The position numbers and the translations under genes are program-made. This document shows, piece after piece, positions 832 through 46,366 of a stretch of 48,318 nucleotides of DNA. The stretch is from a virus: IMG/VR virus record IMGVR_UViG_3300046492_000289, positions 1-48,318 of that record; one strand, written 5' to 3'. How positions within the stretch are numbered: the stretch's first letter is position 1; each line of letters begins with the position of its first letter. Under the pieces are notes generated by a model. It had not been told where the DNA came from. It was given only the letters and a program-made list of their open reading frames with translations, and did not search any database.

Positions 832-1494
832 TCAAGCTCCTAATCTATGGGCTTGTGCCCGTGCTTTGTCCGCGACCTCATCAACCATGCGATTCAGCTC
901 CAGGTTGAATTGGACGAGCTCTCTGTGCAGGTTGGCGATGTAGTCTTCGTCGCGGTAAATCGTTTCGATATAGAGCTGACACTCCTCGTCTTGGCGGGAA
1001 TCGAAGGACAGAAAGTCCCACCATTGCCTGCCCGTCACGAACATGCAGCCCTGAATCTGCGGCATATGTTCCTCGGGCATGCCCTCCAGCCAAGTCCTGA
1101 CGTGGATCGCCTCGTTGAAAGGACACTTTGACTCGGTGCCACCGTCATCGTTGATCAGGCCGTCTGGCGAGCAGCCGAGCCAGTCATACTTCGGGTGAAC
1201 GATGAATTCCGACGGCACGACAATGTTGCCGGTCAGCATCTCGTAGGCGTCCTGAGCCTTTTGCTCTTCTGTGTGACCCCACTTCATGGAAGCGCTGCTG
1301 ACGTTGTGCTTGGACTTCTTTGCCAGTCGTTCGAAGCACAGCTCACGCATGTAGGAGGTCCGCGCGCCCATCGGCTCGCGCTTCCCATGCTTGTCAGGTT
1401 TTCCCCAAGCCATTACGTCTTTGAAGCGGCTGGCCGTCACTCGACCGGATCGGTCTGAATGCCACTTTTCAGTACCTTGCAGTTCCGCTCTCAC
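832..1494 (-). CDS. YqaJ-family phage exonuclease (lambda Exo-like)
   Basis: A 220-aa PD-(D/E)XK nuclease of the YqaJ/lambda-exonuclease type. It digests one strand of double-stranded DNA ends to give single-stranded DNA for the annealing partner encoded directly upstream. Visible motifs: GHTEE (Gly73, Glu77), SPDG with Asp111, and ESK with Glu121 and Lys123, in the order expected for the catalytic core, followed by a conserved Gln region (MPQIQG). The start is a GTG at 1494 that overlaps the TAG stop of recT, so the pair is co-translated like lambda exo and bet. A functional exo/annealase pair for replication and end repair is likely. Confidence 0.9.
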   Translation of the reverse strand: MRAELQGTEKWHSDRSGRVTASRFKDVMAWGKPDKHGKREPMGARTSYMRELCFERLAKKSKHNVSSASMKWGHTEEQKAQDAYEMLTGNIVVPSEFIVHPKYDWLGCSPDGLINDDGGTESKCPFNEAIHVRTWLEGMPEEHMPQIQGCMFVTGRQWWDFLSFDSRQDEECQLYIETIYRDEDYIANLHRELVQFNLELNRMVDEVADKARAQAHRLGA

Positions 1495-2483
1495 TACGCC
1501 GCTTCCTCGACCTGCGACAGGTCTTCGCCGGGGCCAGTCATGTCGGTGAAGTCAGCATCAACAGTTGCCGCCATGCTCTTGAGTGCTTCGTGGCACTCCA
1601 AGCCGATCGCTGCACGCTGCTTAGGCTTGAGACCTGCCCAAGCCGCTGCATATGCATCGATGTCCTGTCGCTTCGCAACGACCAGCAGGTCAGCGAATAC
1701 ACCGTCGATTTCCGGTGATGGGGATTTTGGGCCAAAAGACACTTCGGCTGCGGCAGCGGTGTTTGAGGCTTGCTTCGTAGGTGTGATATCGATTTCGCCA
1801 CCGTAGGAGTCTTCGAACTCGTCGGGGGTGTAGACCCCAAGGATGACGTCCGGGCAAAAGAGCCGCGCCCATTTTTTCGTTACCAGGTAGGCGATTTGCT
1901 GCTTCGGATCTTCCGCCCAAAGTGTCGAGTTGCGAGTGCGAACTTGGGTTAGCAGAAGCTCCAAGGTACGCGGCTCTTCTTCGCCTTTGAATGTTGCCCA
2001 GACCTTGATACCGAGTCCTTTCTCGTCGTCGAAGCTCCACCCCGGAACGCGGTATTTTTTGAATTCGCCAGTGTCCTCGTCCTTCTTGGTTCGGCTGGTC
2101 ACTTCGCGCATCTTTCCGATGACGTTTTCCCAGTTGCCGAACCATTCGAAGTTGAGGCGTCCTTTGACAGGTGCTTTGGCGGTGATCACTGCGTTTACGA
2201 GCTGCGCCTCATAACTGAGTGCACCGCCGTTCACGATGAATGTCTTCTGAGCAACCGCAAACGGGTTCATCTGCCACTGCATGGCCTGCAGGACGACCGC
2301 CATGCAGTCAGCTTGATTGCCCTTCAAATGCTTGGGCACAGTTGTCACGCCCTTCGACATCATCAGTGCGAGGTCGCTCATCGACTTCATGGTGCCCGGG
2401 TCGAGAATGAGCGCAGCCGCGTTGTGGGAAGGATCTTGGTAAGTGGCAAGGCCGGTCGCTGCTTGAGTGTCTGAGTCGTTCAT
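1494..2483 (-). CDS. recT: RecT-family single-strand annealing protein
   Basis: A 329-aa recombinase of the RecT/Red-beta superfamily. It coats single-stranded DNA made by the neighbouring exonuclease and anneals it to complementary strands. Family hallmarks seen: an MNPF segment in the N-terminal half, GGALSYEAQLV, and LWAEDPKQQIAYLVTKKWAR in the core, with an acidic C-terminal tail. The start at 2483 is chosen because AAGGAGAGCGCA precedes the ATG; an in-frame ATG at 2513 also has a weaker site and would add ten residues. Length fits the family. With the exonuclease it forms the phage homologous recombination module. Confidence 0.93.
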   Translation of the reverse strand: MNDSDTQAATGLATYQDPSHNAAALILDPGTMKSMSDLALMMSKGVTTVPKHLKGNQADCMAVVLQAMQWQMNPFAVAQKTFIVNGGALSYEAQLVNAVITAKAPVKGRLNFEWFGNWENVIGKMREVTSRTKKDEDTGEFKKYRVPGWSFDDEKGLGIKVWATFKGEEEPRTLELLLTQVRTRNSTLWAEDPKQQIAYLVTKKWARLFCPDVILGVYTPDEFEDSYGGEIDITPTKQASNTAAAAEVSFGPKSPSPEIDGVFADLLVVAKRQDIDAYAAAWAGLKPKQRAAIGLECHEALKSMAATVDADFTDMTGPGEDLSQVEEAA

Positions 2484-2538
2484 TGCGCTCTCCTTGGCCG
2501 ACGATTTGTTCATCGACCTTTAGAGGGGAAGGGAAGGG

Positions 2539-5546: not shown

Positions 5547-6311
5547 TCAGTCGTAGATGCCGTAGCTGAACTCATCCTCATCGCAGTCGACGATGATTTT
5601 GGATTTACCGAAGTAGAGTGCAGCGACCATCTTTTCGAATGGAGAGCGGAATTTCAGTGTTTGGCTGATCTTCTCGTTGTCGATTTTGGCGGCGTACACC
5701 GAGCCAACCTCATGACCGTTTTCGTTACGGTCTTTCCCGTGACGGTCGAAGCTGATGTGAATCGCGTTGTCGAGCATGTATTCGCTGCGCTCGGAGCTTC
5801 GGGAGTAGGTCGAAAGCCCATGATCCTTTGGCTTCTTGTCGAAGTAGATGTGCAGGCCACCGTAGTCGGATGGCTGGAAACGGATGTCCGGGGCTTCCCA
5901 ATGCTCCTCCGCCGCCGACTCTTTGTGGTCTTCGACGAAAGCTTCCAGCAGATCTTGCAAACTGATTACCTCAGGCAACGCATCCTTGTTCAGCACTTCA
6001 TCGATCTGCTTCTGCGCCAGGCGCACCATGTCAGCTTCGACGCCGCTGTTTTCCCACTTCTCTTTCAATGCAGCCGCAACCATCGCGTTGTAGCGAGTCA
6101 GCTCAAAGATCTCGGTCAAGTTAGCTGGCAGTGCGGCCTTGATTGCCTCCTCGACCTGCTTGCCCATGTCGCCGTAACGACCGAAGCAGTTATCGATCAC
6201 GCTGGTGAACATCTTCTTGACGTGCTCGTCGATGATTTCGACTGGCTTGTCGCTGTTTGCAAAAGCAGTGACGCGCTCGGCGAGCAGCGATTGAAGTGTT
6301 TGTTCGCTCAT
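5547..6311 (-). CDS. phage protein of unknown function, 254 aa
   Basis: Not assigned to a family. The start at 6311 (MSEQTLQSLL) follows GGAGCATCAA; a frame open upstream lacks a site. The N-terminal two thirds is helical, and the C-terminal third carries an FDRHGKDRNENGHE segment and many acidic residues (ending DCDEDEFSYGIYD). No signal peptide or membrane span. It is the third gene of the leftward early operon from PL. A cytoplasmic role early in infection is inferred from position only. Confidence 0.7.
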   Translation of the reverse strand: MSEQTLQSLLAERVTAFANSDKPVEIIDEHVKKMFTSVIDNCFGRYGDMGKQVEEAIKAALPANLTEIFELTRYNAMVAAALKEKWENSGVEADMVRLAQKQIDEVLNKDALPEVISLQDLLEAFVEDHKESAAEEHWEAPDIRFQPSDYGGLHIYFDKKPKDHGLSTYSRSSERSEYMLDNAIHISFDRHGKDRNENGHEVGSVYAAKIDNEKISQTLKFRSPFEKMVAALYFGKSKIIVDCDEDEFSYGIYD

Positions 6312-6400
6312 TTGATGCTCCGTGCTTGATCGGTTGATTTCCCGTCTGGCCCTGTCGCCAAGGCCAGCCAGTGAAATCTGTTGTTGCTCGCGCCTCTTAC

Positions 6401-6775
6401 CTAACGACGTCCTTCTTTTGCTTTTTTGGCAATCCATGCTTCCAAATCTTTCATCAGGATCAGCCGGCGCTTGCCAAGCTTGAACGACGGCAGATCGCCG
6501 CGAGCGATGTACTCATAGACGGCGCTGCGGGCTACGCCGATGGCGGCGCCAGCCTCTTCAACGGACAATGAAAGCTTGTTAGGAGTAGCTGGCCGTGCAG
6601 GCGCGGGCGGCGTCGCAATAGCTTTTTTCGGTCTGCCTAGTTTTTTGGCCGCAGGCTTCGGCGACACGCCAATGGCCCTGAGCATTTTTTGTATTTCGGC
6701 ACTTGTGACGCCAGCAGCCAGTCTCGCCGCCAGAGCCAGCATTGGTGCCTCGTCATCTTCAGCATCTTTGCTCAT
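6401..6775 (-). CDS. excisionase-type HTH DNA-binding protein
   Basis: A 124-aa protein whose last 55 residues form a typical helix-turn-helix of the MerR/excisionase (HTH_17, AlpA-like) kind: LSVEEAGAAIGVARSAVYEY, a wing with LPSFKLGKRRLI, then a closing helix DLEAWIAKKA. The middle is an Ala/Pro-rich basic linker (KKLGRPKKAIATPP) that may touch the DNA minor groove like an AT-hook. Start 6775 chosen from GAGGTACGCAT before ATG. In a prophage such proteins act as excisionases or as regulators; which is not decidable without knowing the integrase, which lies outside the window. Confidence 0.75.
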   Translation of the reverse strand: MSKDAEDDEAPMLALAARLAAGVTSAEIQKMLRAIGVSPKPAAKKLGRPKKAIATPPAPARPATPNKLSLSVEEAGAAIGVARSAVYEYIARGDLPSFKLGKRRLILMKDLEAWIAKKAKEGRR

Positions 6776-6842: not shown

Positions 6843-7190
6843 TCAAACACGTTTCGGCTCAAGTGCGTATTTGATTTGCAGGTTTTGATCTGGCGAGTAG
6901 ATCGGGTTGCATGTGCTGCAATGCCCAGCAACAGCTATCTCAATTCTGAATTGAGCCGTATCTGCGGGGCGCAGGCAGTTTGGGCAATGCTCATCGTCTG
7001 CAGACTCAATATCTGCGTGGCTCAGAATGCATTTCTGGGCGCCTGCCTCCTCGTCGTGCGACTCGTCACAAATGGGGCAGAAAAACCTTTCAATGACGCC
7101 AGGCATGCAGCACTCCCGAGCCCCATCCTCATCATCGTGCAGTTGGTTGCATGCATCGCACTCGTATTTGATCACCACTGCTTTAGCCAT
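6843..7190 (-). CDS. small zinc-ribbon-like protein, 115 aa
   Basis: Contains several Cys pairs spaced as metal knuckles: CDACNQLHD near the N-terminus, FFCPICDESHDEE in the middle, and CPNCLRPAD then HCSTCNP near the C-terminus. The repeated Cys-X2-Cys units, each followed by acidic residues and His, suggest two or three structural zinc sites. The start at 7190 follows GGAGAAGCGCC. First well-supported gene of the leftward early operon after the candidate PL promoter and nut site. Likely binds nucleic acid or a protein partner; specific role unknown. Confidence 0.7.
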   Translation of the reverse strand: MAKAVVIKYECDACNQLHDDEDGARECCMPGVIERFFCPICDESHDEEAGAQKCILSHADIESADDEHCPNCLRPADTAQFRIEIAVAGHCSTCNPIYSPDQNLQIKYALEPKRV

Positions 7191-7275
7191 GGCGCTTCTC
7201 CAGTTGATTTCCAATGCCGCCTCATCGAAGCGGCATCAGTAAATCTTTGATGCCGTGACCCGCTTCTGGCGTCGG

Positions 7276-7613: not shown

Positions 7614-8093
7614 TTATTTTGTTGCATTGAGTACCTTGCGCATACCTTCCATATCGTCTTGCGAAATCTTCCCCTCAGTACCGCAGACCTGGAACTCTAT
7701 GAGTTTGGCAGAGGAAAGACGCTGGAGATTGGCGCGGTCTACTCGCTTGTCGAAGCGCTCTATTACAGCTGAATTCGCGCCAGCTGACGAGTATTCAAGC
7801 TCCAAATATGGGTCTAGAACTCCGTCCACAAGCCAGTTCGTATGGTTGCAGTCCCGAAAATTCCCACTCTCGCTCCAAGTCATCAGCTCGATCTTGTAGT
7901 GCCCAGGGACTAAATCGCCTTTTAGGTAGAGCGCGACGGTCGAAAAAGAGAAATCTTCTGCATTGGACGGTAATGCGCTCCAGGTAACAGCTCTGTTTCC
8001 GGTGAATCTGTCCGTCTCATCTTTGAAAACTCCAGCGCTAGCTGAAAGAGAGTTGATAAAAAAGAGTGCTGCGAGAAGTGCGCGGTGAACCAT
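7614..8093 (-). CDS. exported protein (moron), 159 aa
   Basis: The start at 8093 follows a very strong ribosome site (GGGGAGGGATACC). Residues 1-20 (MVHRALLAALFFINSLSASA) form a clear signal peptide with cleavage probable after SASA. The mature domain is about 140 residues, with beta-rich hydrophobic patterning and two Cys (in FRDCNH and FQVCGTE) that could form a disulfide. No family recognised. It lies alone between a regulatory region and its own terminator, within the immunity region, so expression from the silent prophage is plausible. Periplasmic or surface location is inferred from the signal peptide. Confidence 0.75.
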   Translation of the reverse strand: MVHRALLAALFFINSLSASAGVFKDETDRFTGNRAVTWSALPSNAEDFSFSTVALYLKGDLVPGHYKIELMTWSESGNFRDCNHTNWLVDGVLDPYLELEYSSAGANSAVIERFDKRVDRANLQRLSSAKLIEFQVCGTEGKISQDDMEGMRKVLNATK

Positions 8094-8131
8094 GGTATCC
8101 CTCCCCAAATAAAGCCTGCACCTTACCATTC

Positions 8132-8146
8132 GTGGCGCTGCGCCAC
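8132..8146. promoter_or_regulatory. 15-bp palindrome between divergent genes
   Basis: GTGGCGC-T-GCGCCAC is a perfect 7-bp inverted repeat around one base, placed between the divergent genes 7614-8093 and 8247-8483. It could be an operator for either or a hairpin in the 5' leader of the leftward gene. No clear promoter was identified next to it. Confidence 0.35.
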
Positions 8147-8246
8147 CATTGGCCGGCTCGGTAGGGAAAGATTGCTGGTCATCTGCTATAGCTTTATTCG
8201 AGAGGCGCATCTGAGGGATCGGGCCGTGAATACGAGTGAGTGTGGA

Positions 8247-8498: not shown

Positions 8499-8520
8499 CC
8501 CGGCGCTAGGCCGGGCTTGT
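8499..8520. terminator. hairpin between convergent genes
   Basis: CCCGGC (8499-8504), loop GCTAG, GCCGGG (8510-8515). There is no long T-run on either side (CTTGTGC to the right, a short A-rich stretch to the left), so termination is likely weak or bidirectional. It sits exactly between the ends of the two convergent genes. Confidence 0.5.
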
Positions 8521-8521
8521 G

Positions 8522-9652
8522 CTATTTGCGTAGCTGAAATGAAATTACATTGCTGGGAAGCTCCTCAGAGGGTGAAAAATACGCCTCTGGCTTTGCTGCC
8601 ATTTCAGCAAGGCGCCTCGCGGGGAGGGGTAGGATCCTAGCTATTTCGTCTTTTGAGAATTTTCCTTTTGTCTCCAAGAAGTCAATCATATCACTGATCA
8701 ATTTACTTGATTCTTTAGGTATTTCTTTATCAAGCGGCTCGCTCTTCCTTCCTCCGGGAAGAGTTGCTAACTGTTTAAATACATAAATACTTTGATTTTC
8801 CGTAATCAGTCCTAAAGATCTCGCTCTAACCGCCAGCGCCGCGATAGAAATACCCCATCGTCTTTTTAGATGGATCAGCGCCTCAAGAGAACACGATGTA
8901 AATTCCTGCAGTATTGACTGGCGAGGGCAAAGAAAGGCTCCGGCAAAAAAATTCGCCTGATCTTCCTTCATTTGTACGAGCTCATCGTCTTCATGGTCTT
9001 CGTCAGATACGGAGGTGTGCATAATAAGATGGCCTAATTCATGGGCCAGATTGAACCTGTGTCGCGCGTTGCTGTTTTGTCTTTCAGTAATGATATAAGC
9101 GAGGTTTCCGCGCCAATTTGAAAATGCCTGAGTTTGACGGTCCATTGATAGCTGAGCAACAAATACGCCATTGCTTTCTAGTAGTCTAGTCATGTTGCTG
9201 ATCGGGCCCGCCCCAAGCTTCCAGAATTTCCTGGCTTCGAGTGCTATGGACTCAATATCGTCCAGTGTGAGCTCAGTAAAATCATCCACCGAGGATCGGT
9301 AGATATTGGCACCCGGATAGTTAATGTCTGCTAGGAGTGCTTGAGAGAACTCCGCGAACCACGACTCTTGGACTTGCGCTTTCGTTCGGGATTTTTTAGC
9401 CGTCGTTTTGAAACTTCTAAAGTGAGAAGGCGTTGTGATTTCTTGAATCGATTTCGATTCGGAATAAAAAAAGTCTGTGCCTACCTCTAAGATTTTTGAA
9501 ATTTTTGAGACGTTTTCGTAGGTCGGATTCTTAGAACCTTTCTCAAAGATAGATACAGCCTGTCTTGTAACACCTATTCGCTCAGATAGTGCTGCCATTG
9601 TAAGTCCGGCGGCTTGCCGGGCTTCAGTTAGTCTTGCCGGGTTGAATTTCAT
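8522..9652 (-). CDS. XRE-HTH fused to ImmA/IrrE-type metalloprotease
   Basis: A 376-aa protein with an XRE helix-turn-helix at residues about 7-58 (RQAAGLTMAALSERIGVTRQ) and a central ImmA/IrrE-type zinc peptidase domain. The zinc motif HELGH is at about 204-208, followed by the family's second signature EDQANFFAGAFLCP near 230-243 that supplies the third ligand. Proteases of this family cut partner HTH repressors (ImmA on ImmR in ICEBs1) or regulate stress genes; the fused form carries its own DNA-binding domain. It overlaps nothing but starts two bases after the partner gene 9655-10278, so the two form an operon. AT content is higher than in the late genes, suggesting separate acquisition. 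Substrate unknown. Confidence 0.88.
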   Translation of the reverse strand: MKFNPARLTEARQAAGLTMAALSERIGVTRQAVSIFEKGSKNPTYENVSKISKILEVGTDFFYSESKSIQEITTPSHFRSFKTTAKKSRTKAQVQESWFAEFSQALLADINYPGANIYRSSVDDFTELTLDDIESIALEARKFWKLGAGPISNMTRLLESNGVFVAQLSMDRQTQAFSNWRGNLAYIITERQNSNARHRFNLAHELGHLIMHTSVSDEDHEDDELVQMKEDQANFFAGAFLCPRQSILQEFTSCSLEALIHLKRRWGISIAALAVRARSLGLITENQSIYVFKQLATLPGGRKSEPLDKEIPKESSKLISDMIDFLETKGKFSKDEIARILPLPARRLAEMAAKPEAYFSPSEELPSNVISFQLRK

Positions 9653-9654
9653 GA

Positions 9655-10278
9655 TTAACGAGCTTTCTTGCTTTGTTCAAATTCTTTTGTGATTTTTTCG
9701 AAGAGATTGTCGAGGTTGTCTTCAATTTTTTCCTCTCGCACCTCTTCAAAAGTTGGTAGAGGAATTTGGCGAGTGTAAAGAGATCTTCTGCAGTTTGCGT
9801 CAGGGATGACAAGGCTCATGAATTCAAGTGTTGCTTTTGAGCCGTGCAACAGCTGGCCGCAAACGATTTCACTTTCATGCTCCTCATATGATTCGGAAAA
9901 TAAATCCATATTTGGGCTTGAGAGGACCCGATTATACAAAGAGTTTTTTAGCATCTTTGTTCTAGGGCTATTTACATTGTGAGCCGTCAATACTAGTCGA
10001 CCTGAACGCACAACTATATGTTTGGAAGAGCCATTTCTATTACTTTCCATTCGCGACGAGATCCCGGAATCTGGCGCTGATCCCGGTACTGCTGCGAGAA
10101 AGTGATCCACGCAGGCGCGCTTGATGTGGCCAGATGCGGCCATGACATTCGTCCCAAGAACAGCGTTACCGCGAATGATCTCTAGCGAAGCCCTGTACCC
10201 CAGAGCTACTGCCTTGGAGATCACTGCCATTTTTTCAAAGGAAAGATCGGTATCAATGAGCTGGGGAAGACTGGGCAT
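9655..10278 (-). CDS. unknown partner of the HTH-ImmA protein, 207 aa
   Basis: Not recognised. Start 10278 (MPSLPQLIDTD) chosen because AGGTG lies eight bases before it; two further in-frame ATGs occur upstream. No HTH or membrane helix is obvious. The middle has the basic stretch SSKHIVVRSGRLVLTAHN, and the C-terminal 40 residues are a charged helix (EEVREEKIEDNLDNLFEK), suggesting a soluble, possibly multimeric protein. It is first in a two-gene operon with the metalloprotease fusion and is preceded by a promoter with palindromic operator. Candidate roles are protease target, co-regulator or the effector half of a toxin-antitoxin-like or defence pair. All are inference. Confidence 0.7.
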   Translation of the reverse strand: MPSLPQLIDTDLSFEKMAVISKAVALGYRASLEIIRGNAVLGTNVMAASGHIKRACVDHFLAAVPGSAPDSGISSRMESNRNGSSKHIVVRSGRLVLTAHNVNSPRTKMLKNSLYNRVLSSPNMDLFSESYEEHESEIVCGQLLHGSKATLEFMSLVIPDANCRRSLYTRQIPLPTFEEVREEKIEDNLDNLFEKITKEFEQSKKAR

Positions 10279-10291
10279 GGCAAGGCACCTA

Positions 10292-10342
10292 GTTGACATC
10301 GTTCGTGTCAACCATTTTGCCTAAAATCATGGAAATGTCAAC
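10292..10342 (-). promoter_or_regulatory. promoter and palindromic operator of the HTH-ImmA operon
   Basis: Perfect inverted repeat GTTGACA-TCGTTCG-TGTCAAC (10292-10312), and a third copy of the half-site TGTCAAC at 10336-10342. On the minus strand the outer copy gives a perfect -35 TTGACA, with CAAAAT 16 bp downstream as the -10. The palindrome then covers the expected start of transcription. This suggests autoregulation by the XRE domain of the downstream protein. Confidence 0.6.
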
Positions 10343-10466
10343 CGAGCTGTTGGTGATTCGTCTTTTGCCCGTCCAGCTCCAGACTCCATCACCTACCACC
10401 TCGTCTTGTGACAGAAAAAGGCCTCTGAAACTGCGCAGTCAATTTTGAGTCAAGTCTGGATGCGGG

Positions 10467-11255
10467 TTACCTAGAGTACATCGCCCACCAGAACACGTGC
10501 CCCAGAATCGAGATCTGCTGCTCCTGGATCTGCTGGAACGTGTAGTCCTCGTCTGGATGTTCATCACGATTGAAGCTGCGTAGGCGCAGCCCCGTCGGGA
10601 TGCGATAGACCTGCTTCACACGGAGCTGGCCATTGTGGTTGATGGCGTACATCTCACCGTCGACGATGTCGCTGAGGGAGTTTTTACCCACGTTCACGCC
10701 AACCGTCGCGCCGTCACGCAGCACTGGCACCATGCTGTTGCCACCAACCTTTACGCACTTCGCGTTGCTGAACTGAACGCCGTTGTGGCGCAGGTCCTTC
10801 TTGTTGAAGCGCAGGCGCGAGTTGGCGCTTTCCTCAATCGCAAACCTGCCAGATCCGGCCGCCAGTTCGACTTCATGAAGGAAGGGGACGTAGACCTCAT
10901 CGTCATCGAGCGGGGTTTCGTCGTCCCAAGTCTCGATGCTTCCTAATTTTACGCTTGGCTGTAAGCGGTCCTGCTGCACGCTGGCAACTGTGGATAACAG
11001 TCGAGAGCTGACCTCGCTTGCATCGAAGTTGAGCGCCTTTGCGAGCTTCAGCAGCGCTTCCACATTTAGTGGCACCTTCCCTGTGGCGTATTGGCTAAAT
11101 GCGCTTTGACCAGACCATCCGCATGCTTCGGCAACATCCGCCTGCGTCAGGCTGCGCCCGGCAGCTTTTGCAGCTGATTTCCGCTGTTCGTAGATGGCCT
11201 TGAGCCTGGCGCTCTCGGCGACTTCTTCGGGGGTTAGGGGGCGGCGTATTTTCAT
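10467..11255 (-). CDS. cI: CI-like prophage repressor with S24 peptidase domain
   Basis: A 262-aa repressor: an N-terminal helix-turn-helix (about residues 36-62, LTQADVAEACGWSGQSAFSQ), a linker, and a C-terminal LexA/S24 self-cleavage domain. Catalytic Ser174 is in GNSM and Lys214 in LRVKQ, and AAGSG (Ala133-Gly134) is the probable cleavage site. RecA activated by DNA damage would promote self-cleavage and prophage induction. The start is placed at 11255 (MKIRRPLTPEE); it has no clear ribosome site, as in leaderless lambda cI made from PRM. Longer upstream starts would run through the operators. It is divergent from cro, with three operators between them. Confidence 0.92.
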   Translation of the reverse strand: MKIRRPLTPEEVAESARLKAIYEQRKSAAKAAGRSLTQADVAEACGWSGQSAFSQYATGKVPLNVEALLKLAKALNFDASEVSSRLLSTVASVQQDRLQPSVKLGSIETWDDETPLDDDEVYVPFLHEVELAAGSGRFAIEESANSRLRFNKKDLRHNGVQFSNAKCVKVGGNSMVPVLRDGATVGVNVGKNSLSDIVDGEMYAINHNGQLRVKQVYRIPTGLRLRSFNRDEHPDEDYTFQQIQEQQISILGHVFWWAMYSR

Positions 11256-11269
11256 ACGTACAAGAGTAT

Positions 11270-11341
11270 TAGCAGAGCTGATACTCAAGCAAATAGCGCT
11301 GCTAGTATTTTGTTGCTGATAAAAAGCAGCACTGCTACTAT
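11270..11341 (+). promoter_or_regulatory. OR operators and PR promoter
   Basis: Three related operators lie between the repressor gene and cro: TAGCAGAGCTGATA (11270-11283), AAATAGCGCTGCTA (11291-11304) and AAGCAGCACTGCTA (11324-11337). The middle one is identical to OL2 at 7.5 kb. A rightward promoter TTGCTG (11313-11318), 17-bp spacer, TACTAT (11336-11341) overlaps the third operator, as at PL, so repressor would block PR. Confidence 0.75.
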
Positions 11342-11371
11342 CCATGGCAGATATCAAGCCGTGAAAATTCC

Positions 11372-45006: not shown

Positions 45007-45243
45007 CTACGACAAGAGAAGTATTGCTTTGAGTTGTTTGGGCATTGCCCTGACGAGTCGCACGACCTGACGCGACGATCTCCTTCTCAGGTAAATGGGC
45101 AGTAGATCTAAAAACTCCTCCAAACTATTGGAAGTGACTTGTTTAACAAAATCGGCTAAAAGCTGACCTCCAGAACATTTGCCTGATGCAAGCTCCCTTT
45201 GAACGTTCAAGTATGGACACTGACATGACGCAGCTAGACGCAT
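45007..45243 (-). CDS. doubtful leftward ORF, 78 aa
   Basis: Reads MRLAASCQCPYLNVQRELAS and then a plausible amphipathic helix region with NSLEEFLDLLPIYLRRRSSR. The start overlaps the acyltransferase start by two bases on the opposite strand and there is no clear ribosome site. Protein-like composition keeps it as a possibility, no more. The rest of 44941-45241 holds no other gene that can be supported. Confidence 0.3.
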   Translation of the reverse strand: MRLAASCQCPYLNVQRELASGKCSGGQLLADFVKQVTSNSLEEFLDLLPIYLRRRSSRQVVRLVRAMPKQLKAILLLS

Positions 45244-46366
45244 GAATCACCGGAATAATTTTGACTTACTGAGGCTCTTTGCGGCCTGTCAGGTGATGGT
45301 GACACATGCCTGTTTCTGGCTGCATCTCAATGAGGGATGGTCCGACACTTTCGCCTATCGGCTGCTGTTTTCATTTCCAGGCGTGGCGATCTTTTTTGTT
45401 GTCAGCGGTTTCCTCGTCACCGACTCCTATCTACGCTCAACCTCATCTGGTAGCTATTTCGTCAAGCGGGCGCTGCGAATCTTCCCGGCACTGTTCGTCA
45501 ACATCGCCGTGATGGAGATAGCTCTATTCGCAACCGGTGGGTTGTCCATTATCGGTAATGTGGCCAAGTATCTGGGCTACCTTTCGGTTTATGTGCTGAC
45601 AGGCGCTCGCGATTGGGGAATATATGCGTCCTCTTTTAACCCCTACGTCTCGACCGGTTTTTTCAAGGCTCCTACAAGCGGGGTGTTGTGGACCCTGAGC
45701 GTGGAACTGACGTTTTACTTGGTCCTGCCGTTCCTACTTGAGGCGTATCGGCGCACCAAGAGTGCTGGCGTCTTGCTGATAGCTGTTTGCGGCATCGCTT
45801 CGTGGGTCATGGCTCAACACTACAACCTGACGGAAAAGTACGACCCATTTTTCTCATTAACGATTGGCCCCAGCTTCTGGATTTTCTCATTTGGGGTACT
45901 CGCCCGCCTGTGCTGGAACCGGGTTAGCGTCGTCTTCACAAATAAGGCGGGATGGTGGCTCGCCGCGCACCTGGGCTTGGCCTGGTTGACGGCGACGGGC
46001 CCATACGCCTTTGTCTCCATCAACAACGCAGCACCTTTGGATGCGCTGCGGATTGCGGTCTTGGCCGGACTCGTCTTGTCGGCGGCCTACACCTTCCCGC
46101 GTCCGCAACTGCTGAGGGGCCAAGACCTTTCCTATGGCATCTATCTGTACCACATGCTGGTCATGCACACATTCGTCGCTATGGGCTGGGTACGGATATG
46201 GTGGCTGTGGATACTGCTTCCACTCGCCACAATTTGTATGGCGGCTGCATCATGGCTGCTGATCGAAAAGCCGGCCTTGAGGTTGAGATCGGCCTTTGTT
46301 GCGCGATCTGCCAGCCGGGATATTGGAAACGTTGGAGCCAAGCATCCCGAAGCGCCTGCCCCATGA
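45242..46366 (+). CDS. membrane acyltransferase (O-antigen-type acetylase)
   Basis: A 374-aa polytopic protein of the acyltransferase-3 (OafA/NodX-like) family. N-terminus MNHRNNFDLLRLFAACQVMV with the conserved NFDLLRLFAA and the following THACFW His, then about ten membrane helices. YGIYLYHMLVMHT near 295-307 and WLLIEKPALRLR near the end are typical family blocks. Such prophage enzymes acetylate O-antigen sugars, altering phage receptors (serotype conversion and superinfection exclusion). Clear ribosome site is missing, but the start fits the conserved N-terminus. Less GC-rich than the tail genes; probable recent cargo. Confidence 0.85.
   Translation: MNHRNNFDLLRLFAACQVMVTHACFWLHLNEGWSDTFAYRLLFSFPGVAIFFVVSGFLVTDSYLRSTSSGSYFVKRALRIFPALFVNIAVMEIALFATGGLSIIGNVAKYLGYLSVYVLTGARDWGIYASSFNPYVSTGFFKAPTSGVLWTLSVELTFYLVLPFLLEAYRRTKSAGVLLIAVCGIASWVMAQHYNLTEKYDPFFSLTIGPSFWIFSFGVLARLCWNRVSVVFTNKAGWWLAAHLGLAWLTATGPYAFVSINNAAPLDALRIAVLAGLVLSAAYTFPRPQLLRGQDLSYGIYLYHMLVMHTFVAMGWVRIWWLWILLPLATICMAAASWLLIEKPALRLRSAFVARSASRDIGNVGAKHPEAPAP

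Follow-up and report, generated by a model that had tools for sequence, protein, structure and literature searches.

What is the two-gene unit that lies beside the cI gene of this prophage, and on what would its small protein act? The window (the whole stretch of 48,318 nucleotides that was analysed) carries an ORF for a large protein combining an HTH domain with a zinc metalloprotease domain, and directly upstream of it an ORF for a smaller partner. The sequence-only reading had offered two explanations, a second switch independent of the CI/Cro circuit or an anti-phage defence pair, and had named the partner as a candidate for an undescribed component.

Identity of the rmrTA pair and its prophage context

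As shown in Table 1, the HTH_3 domain, the Peptidase_M78 domain and the HELGH motif all fall within one ORF of 376 aa, and the 207-aa ORF precedes it by only 2 bp, toxin gene first. Both genes had been described in this way from the sequence, as an XRE domain and a zinc protease in one polypeptide and a co-transcribed partner. H204, E205, H208 and E230 of the large protein were invariant when six relatives were compared. The PADLOC models identified the large protein as RmrA and, weakly, the small protein as RmrT. The NCBIfam model of the spr1629 antitoxin (NF052239) also matched RmrA (E 1e-59), with 202.6 bits against a curated cut-off of 335; judged from sequence, RmrA is related to spr1629 and is not the equivalog. 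RosmerTA systems are toxin-antitoxin defence systems, as shown for other members (PMC10440598; PMC12322248), and we assign rmrTA to them as a pair of predicted activity.

Table 1. Features of the rmrTA locus and its surroundings (window coordinates).
Feature	Position	Strand	Description	Match
rmrA	8522..9652	-	376 aa; antitoxin/predicted autorepressor, XRE HTH + M78 metalloprotease	PADLOC RmrA E 4.5e-99
HTH_3 domain of RmrA	9467..9625	-	residues 10-62	E 1.3e-12
Peptidase_M78 (ImmA/IrrE) domain of RmrA	8822..9142	-	residues 171-277	E 7.7e-15
HELGH zinc-site motif of RmrA	9029..9043	-	residues 204-208	
rmrT	9655..10278	-	207 aa, ATG at 10278; predicted clamp-binding toxin	PADLOC RmrT E 4.7e-6
NMDLF clamp-binding-like motif of RmrT	9898..9912	-	residues 123-127, flexible inter-domain loop	
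Terminator-like hairpin after rmrA	8499..8515	-		
CI-type repressor gene	10467..11357	-	HTH + S24 peptidase; adjoins rmrTA	
Sigma-70-type rmrTA promoter	10314..10341	-	TTGACA (10341-10336), 16 bp, CAAAAT (10319-10314)	best promoter match
Predicted operator half-site GGTTGACA	10336..10343	-	overlaps -35 box	
Inverted repeat GTTGACA-N7-TGTCAAC	10292..10312	.	predicted RmrA operator, just downstream of -10	

The conservation of the pair was examined in 160 loci that RmrA retrieved from genomes and viral contigs, with annotated phages added. An ORF of 185-270 aa lay directly upstream in 156 of 170 RmrA loci, and 124 of the 137 unique partners joined the family of the window RmrT in an iterated HMM search. 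A toxin-only search (P0002) of viral contigs and plasmids gave no match, and the partners were then found from RmrA. Searching from the toxin side, we found RmrA directly downstream in all 30 loci of toxins resembling pneumococcal RipA (see below), and the loci found by an alignment of window-type toxins (13/13) sit on contigs already found via RmrA. Homologues of the two genes thus co-occur whichever of them is used for the search. The pair occurs on chromosomes and in prophages in many contexts that are unrelated to each other, and is sporadic in Pseudomonas, with two strong hits and one weak hit among 299 genomes.

The locus is a known kind of two-gene phage-defence system, not an undescribed one, and the proposal of a RosmerTA-like pair on a prophage agrees with the matches to both genes and with their co-occurrence. 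The proposal that the partner is an undescribed component held for its activity but not for its identity: RmrT has a weak family match, whereas it had no Pfam or NCBIfam match and no PDB relative by sequence, and Pfam and PDB sequence searches with the RmrT family likewise gave no meaningful match.

The carrier is a Pseudomonas-type lambdoid prophage. Its nucleotide similarity is to Pseudomonas phages, and the other genes around rmrTA encode Cro, CII, Ant, RecE/RecT-like proteins, a terminase and a lambda-J-type tail fibre. cI is followed downstream by rmrTA with the same orientation, an arrangement also seen in two related loci (L002 and L011). The rexAB genes of lambda are likewise located downstream of cI in the same direction. 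In Escherichia phage Tritos (L003), the pair adjoins a HokD toxin gene (2026-2181) upstream of Q and not beside cI. In the window, rmrA is followed by three genes, 7614-8210(-), 6846-7214(-) and 5550-6437(-), that match only phage families of unknown function (phrog_36853, phrog_32948 and phrog_2600). The RecE-like exonuclease and RecT-like annealing protein form a pair at 835-2513(-), and an O-acetyltransferase/O-antigen acetylase-like gene near the right end (45242-46366(+)) is likely to serve lysogenic conversion.

Promoter and predicted operator

The -35 box and start region of rmrTA had been described as covered by a TTGACA/TGTCAA palindrome plus a third half-site. All of these elements are present (Table 1); the 7-bp arms of the palindrome are perfect, and it is the sole zero-mismatch copy in 48 kb. 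The octamer GGTTGACA occurs only twice in the window, both times on the minus strand at the rmrTA promoter and 30 bp apart; two or more copies occurred in 37 of 100 shuffles of the 48 kb, so the count alone is not improbable. A direct repeat, [ACG]GTTGAC[AT] ... [AG]GTTGAC[AT] with a period of 30-34 bp, preceded rmrT in 14 of the 137 unique loci; when those upstream regions were shuffled 200 times, it never appeared. Among the 14 are loci of Pseudomonas, Erwinia, Escherichia phage Tritos and viral contigs related to them, and three distant loci (L084, L086 and L157). Of the two copies, the upper one also forms the -35 box and the lower one is placed at the start region, an arrangement that autorepression would call for. 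In the Pseudomonas-type loci (window, L002, L011 and L209) a third half-site, inverted, can be clearly recognised. Conservation of the operator together with the operon supports the predicted binding of the palindrome by the HTH domain of RmrA. The three distant loci have an RmrT with no HMM link to the family, yet they carry the GTTGACA direct-repeat operator at 33-34 bp.

These results bear on the suggestion of a second lysogeny/induction switch independent of CI/Cro, in which the HTH-ImmA protein would control prophage genes. Its XRE + ImmA architecture is like that of ICEBs1 regulation and it lies beside cI, but its own promoter is the one place in the 48 kb with the zero-mismatch palindrome and the GGTTGACA sites, and the pair is found in many unrelated contexts and elsewhere in the Tritos genome. 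Beyond the repressor-type HTH nothing spoke for such a switch, and we rejected it as very improbable since the predicted operator is confined to its own promoter.

A clamp-binding-like motif in the RmrT family

An internal motif, Q-x-[SD]-L-F, is conserved in the RmrT family and corresponds to NMDLF in the window protein. The variants of the partners aligned to NMDLF include QLSLF, QLDMF, QMSLF, QADLF, QTDLF, QLTLF, QLELDL and so on, and the alignment consensus is A..R......N.Q..LF, with F or L at residue 127 in 68 of 77 proteins and L at residue 126 in 46 of 77. Partners outside the HMM family also have the motif, and it is perfect in L086 (QMSLF) and L157 (QLDLF). The bacterial beta-clamp-binding consensus is QL[S/D]LF or QxxLF (PMC12309361; PMC9690074), and by comparison of the sequences the family motif appears to match it.

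A regular-expression scan over whole proteins was only modestly above shuffles (31 against 12.6), and we therefore turned to a test of motif position, using an independent matrix whose columns were also permuted. The matrix was derived from proteins known to bind the clamp, with no RmrT sequences among them, its peptides being partly chosen from general knowledge. For 39 of 73 members (<50% identity), the inter-domain linker held the best 5-mer of the whole protein, when 10.2 were expected from linker length (p 2.5e-15). The true column order ranked first of 120 permutations (39; second 38; median 17); some permutations were close because Q and F stay in place or composition is similar, and part of the signal is therefore due to composition. 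In about half of the family the best matrix match lay outside the linker, partly from misalignment.

The window motif has N and not Q at position 1, and so do its nearest relatives. In the window, L002, L011, L209 and the enterobacterial relatives the motif is N-x-[DE]-[LFM]-F with N and F invariant, and Tritos-type toxins have NYELNF. In the alignment this N is matched to a conserved N, which in other members stands before the Q; the Q may therefore be missing entirely from window-type toxins. In E. coli, position 1 of the clamp motif matters (PMC12309361). The E. coli delta subunit binds the clamp via QAMSLF (PMC2705854), and other natural clamp motifs vary (PMC2705854; PMC12309361).

The AlphaFold model of the window RmrT was confident (pLDDT 90.1, pTM 0.86), with a predicted order of H-H-E-E-E-H-loop-E-E-E-H. 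Residues 121-140, which hold the motif, are the least confident part and the only flexible loop of the model, as would be expected of an exposed docking loop. No significant fold match came from Foldseek searches of the models against PDB and BFVD. The weak matches of RmrT were enriched in PD-(D/E)XK-type proteins (CinB/CidB, SSO0001, McrC, NhoI, DpnI, RecE and Hjc), all with E > 0.01 and TM about 0.3, and the model of a RipA-type toxin weakly touched EcoRV. No conserved catalytic D/E/K set was seen in the RmrT family alignment. From these models a degenerate PD-(D/E)XK-like core is possible in RmrT.

Two other readings of the toxin draw on these fold hints. RmrT could have another target, as a PD-(D/E)XK-like nuclease or a membrane toxin, with Q..LF a structural or antitoxin-binding element; another Rosmer toxin does depolarise membranes (PMC10440598). 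The insignificant fold matches, the lack of a catalytic set in the alignment, the fit of the motif to an independent consensus and the genetics of RipA, which point to DnaN, make this unlikely in our judgement. RmrT might instead combine both features, reaching the replisome by its clamp motif and cutting DNA there. Here the motif evidence would be joined to the fold hints, but the same missing catalytic residues and insignificant matches oppose it, and we regard such a recruited nuclease as improbable, more so than a different target.

Comparison with RipA is more direct. RipA (Spr1630) is a pneumococcal Rosmer toxin that is harmful when expressed alone and interacts with DnaN in two-hybrid and split-luciferase assays; suppressors, published in 2025, lie in the protein-binding hydrophobic pocket of DnaN (PMC12795458). 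That paper reports no motif and does not use the word. We compiled a RipA-type set from toxin neighbours of spr1629-equivalog antitoxins and prophage relatives. RipA of S. pneumoniae R6 itself is not in the set and is represented by orthologues over the spr1629 cut-off, some of which have a QMELV loop. A clamp-like motif (QLSLF, QLDLF, QLxLxL, QLALPL or a looser variant) was present in the corresponding loop of 33 of 35 RipA-type toxins. RipA-type toxins from Lactobacillales genomes of 2.1-2.3 Mb (L242 348-1079 and its relatives L243 and L244) have a second clamp-like stretch, N-terminal MLNQDLFD, besides the central IQMELV. RmrT and RipA showed remote similarity in profile-profile comparison by hhalign (E 2.7e-5, probability 74%), and the predicted order of secondary structure is the same in both. 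The RipA-type model was weak (pLDDT 64), with the motif loop in a disordered stretch, so homology of RmrT and RipA is likely and not proven.

Proposed action of RmrT and comparison with known systems

Taken as a whole, we consider it reasonably probable that rmrTA is a RosmerTA pair whose toxin, once control by RmrA is lost, binds to the beta clamp and stalls replication. The HTH of RmrA would bind the GGTTGACA sites and repress the rmrTA operon, and RmrA would neutralise RmrT. Upon host stress or infection, the M78 protease may respond to ssDNA or DNA damage, in the manner of CapP-CapH and PprI-DdrO, and the toxin would be released from this control. Freed RmrT would place its exposed loop motif in the protein-binding pocket of the DnaN beta sliding clamp and displace the polymerase, so that replication stalls and infection is aborted. 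The N at position 1 in the window, the half of the family with its best match outside the linker and the remoteness of the RipA homology count against clamp docking. The motif could also serve for sensing, with the pair monitoring the replisome and being set off by a phage that displaces or replaces the clamp. Conservation of the motif and the narrow phage specificity of Rosmer systems (PMC10440598; PMC12322248) would suit such a sensor, but RipA is a toxin in its own right with suppressors in dnaN (PMC12795458), and we give sensing very little weight.

The main RmrT superfamily is spread over Pseudomonadota, Bacillota, Actinomycetota, Planctomycetota, Chloroflexota and Desulfobacterota. More tentatively, and with slightly more doubt than belief, we suggest that its members form a single widespread toxin family poisoning the beta clamp via the internal motif, carried by prophages as a rex-like device beside cI against incoming clamp-dependent phages. 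If so, the narrow phage range of RosmerTA systems would also be accounted for, since only phages relying on the host's clamp would be stopped. RmrT would move from a family of "unknown toxins" to one whose specific target is open to testing by a few substitutions. If the clamp-binding motif is indeed shared, poisoning of the beta clamp would be a common means of bacterial immunity, and the toxins would supply natural peptides for an antibacterial target. In the literature searched, the clamp target was known for one member only, pneumococcal RipA, with no motif given. The locus itself belongs to a known defence family, and what appears new from the sequence comparison is the family-wide clamp-binding-like motif of RmrT; it was not found in the literature searched (preprints and most subscription papers were outside its scope), and priority is not certain.

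Like the systems described by the PADLOC RmrT/RmrA models, rmrTA has an HTH + M78 antitoxin, an adjacent RmrT, toxin-first order and prophage carriage, but the window RmrT is divergent from those models (E 4.7e-6) and the defence activity of the window copy is predicted. RipAB of S. pneumoniae (Spr1630/Spr1629) has the same antitoxin architecture and a clamp-like motif in the corresponding toxin loop, although RipA belongs to family PDLC03931 whereas the window RmrT is nearest to PDLC03933/34/38/40. The toxin of RosmerTA from Gordonia phage Kita acts on membranes and depolarises them (PMC10440598), so membership in RosmerTA does not imply one mechanism. RmrT is likened by its predicted motif to SocB of the Caulobacter SocAB system, a toxin that blocks replication via a clamp-binding motif (PMC9690074).

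On the antitoxin side, RmrA resembles CapH/CapP and PprI(IrrE)/DdrO in pairing an HTH repressor with an M78-type protease, and its M78 part matches capP (E 6.7e-17). The ImmA/IrrE-type proteases of PprI-DdrO and CapP-CapH are activated by ssDNA (PMC10904395). In those systems the HTH and the protease are separate proteins, whereas they are fused in RmrA, so that an RmrA molecule would cut either itself or another RmrA. ICEBs1 differs in the same respect: its ImmA cleaves a separate repressor, ImmR, that controls excision, while the fused RmrA has its predicted operator only at its own promoter.
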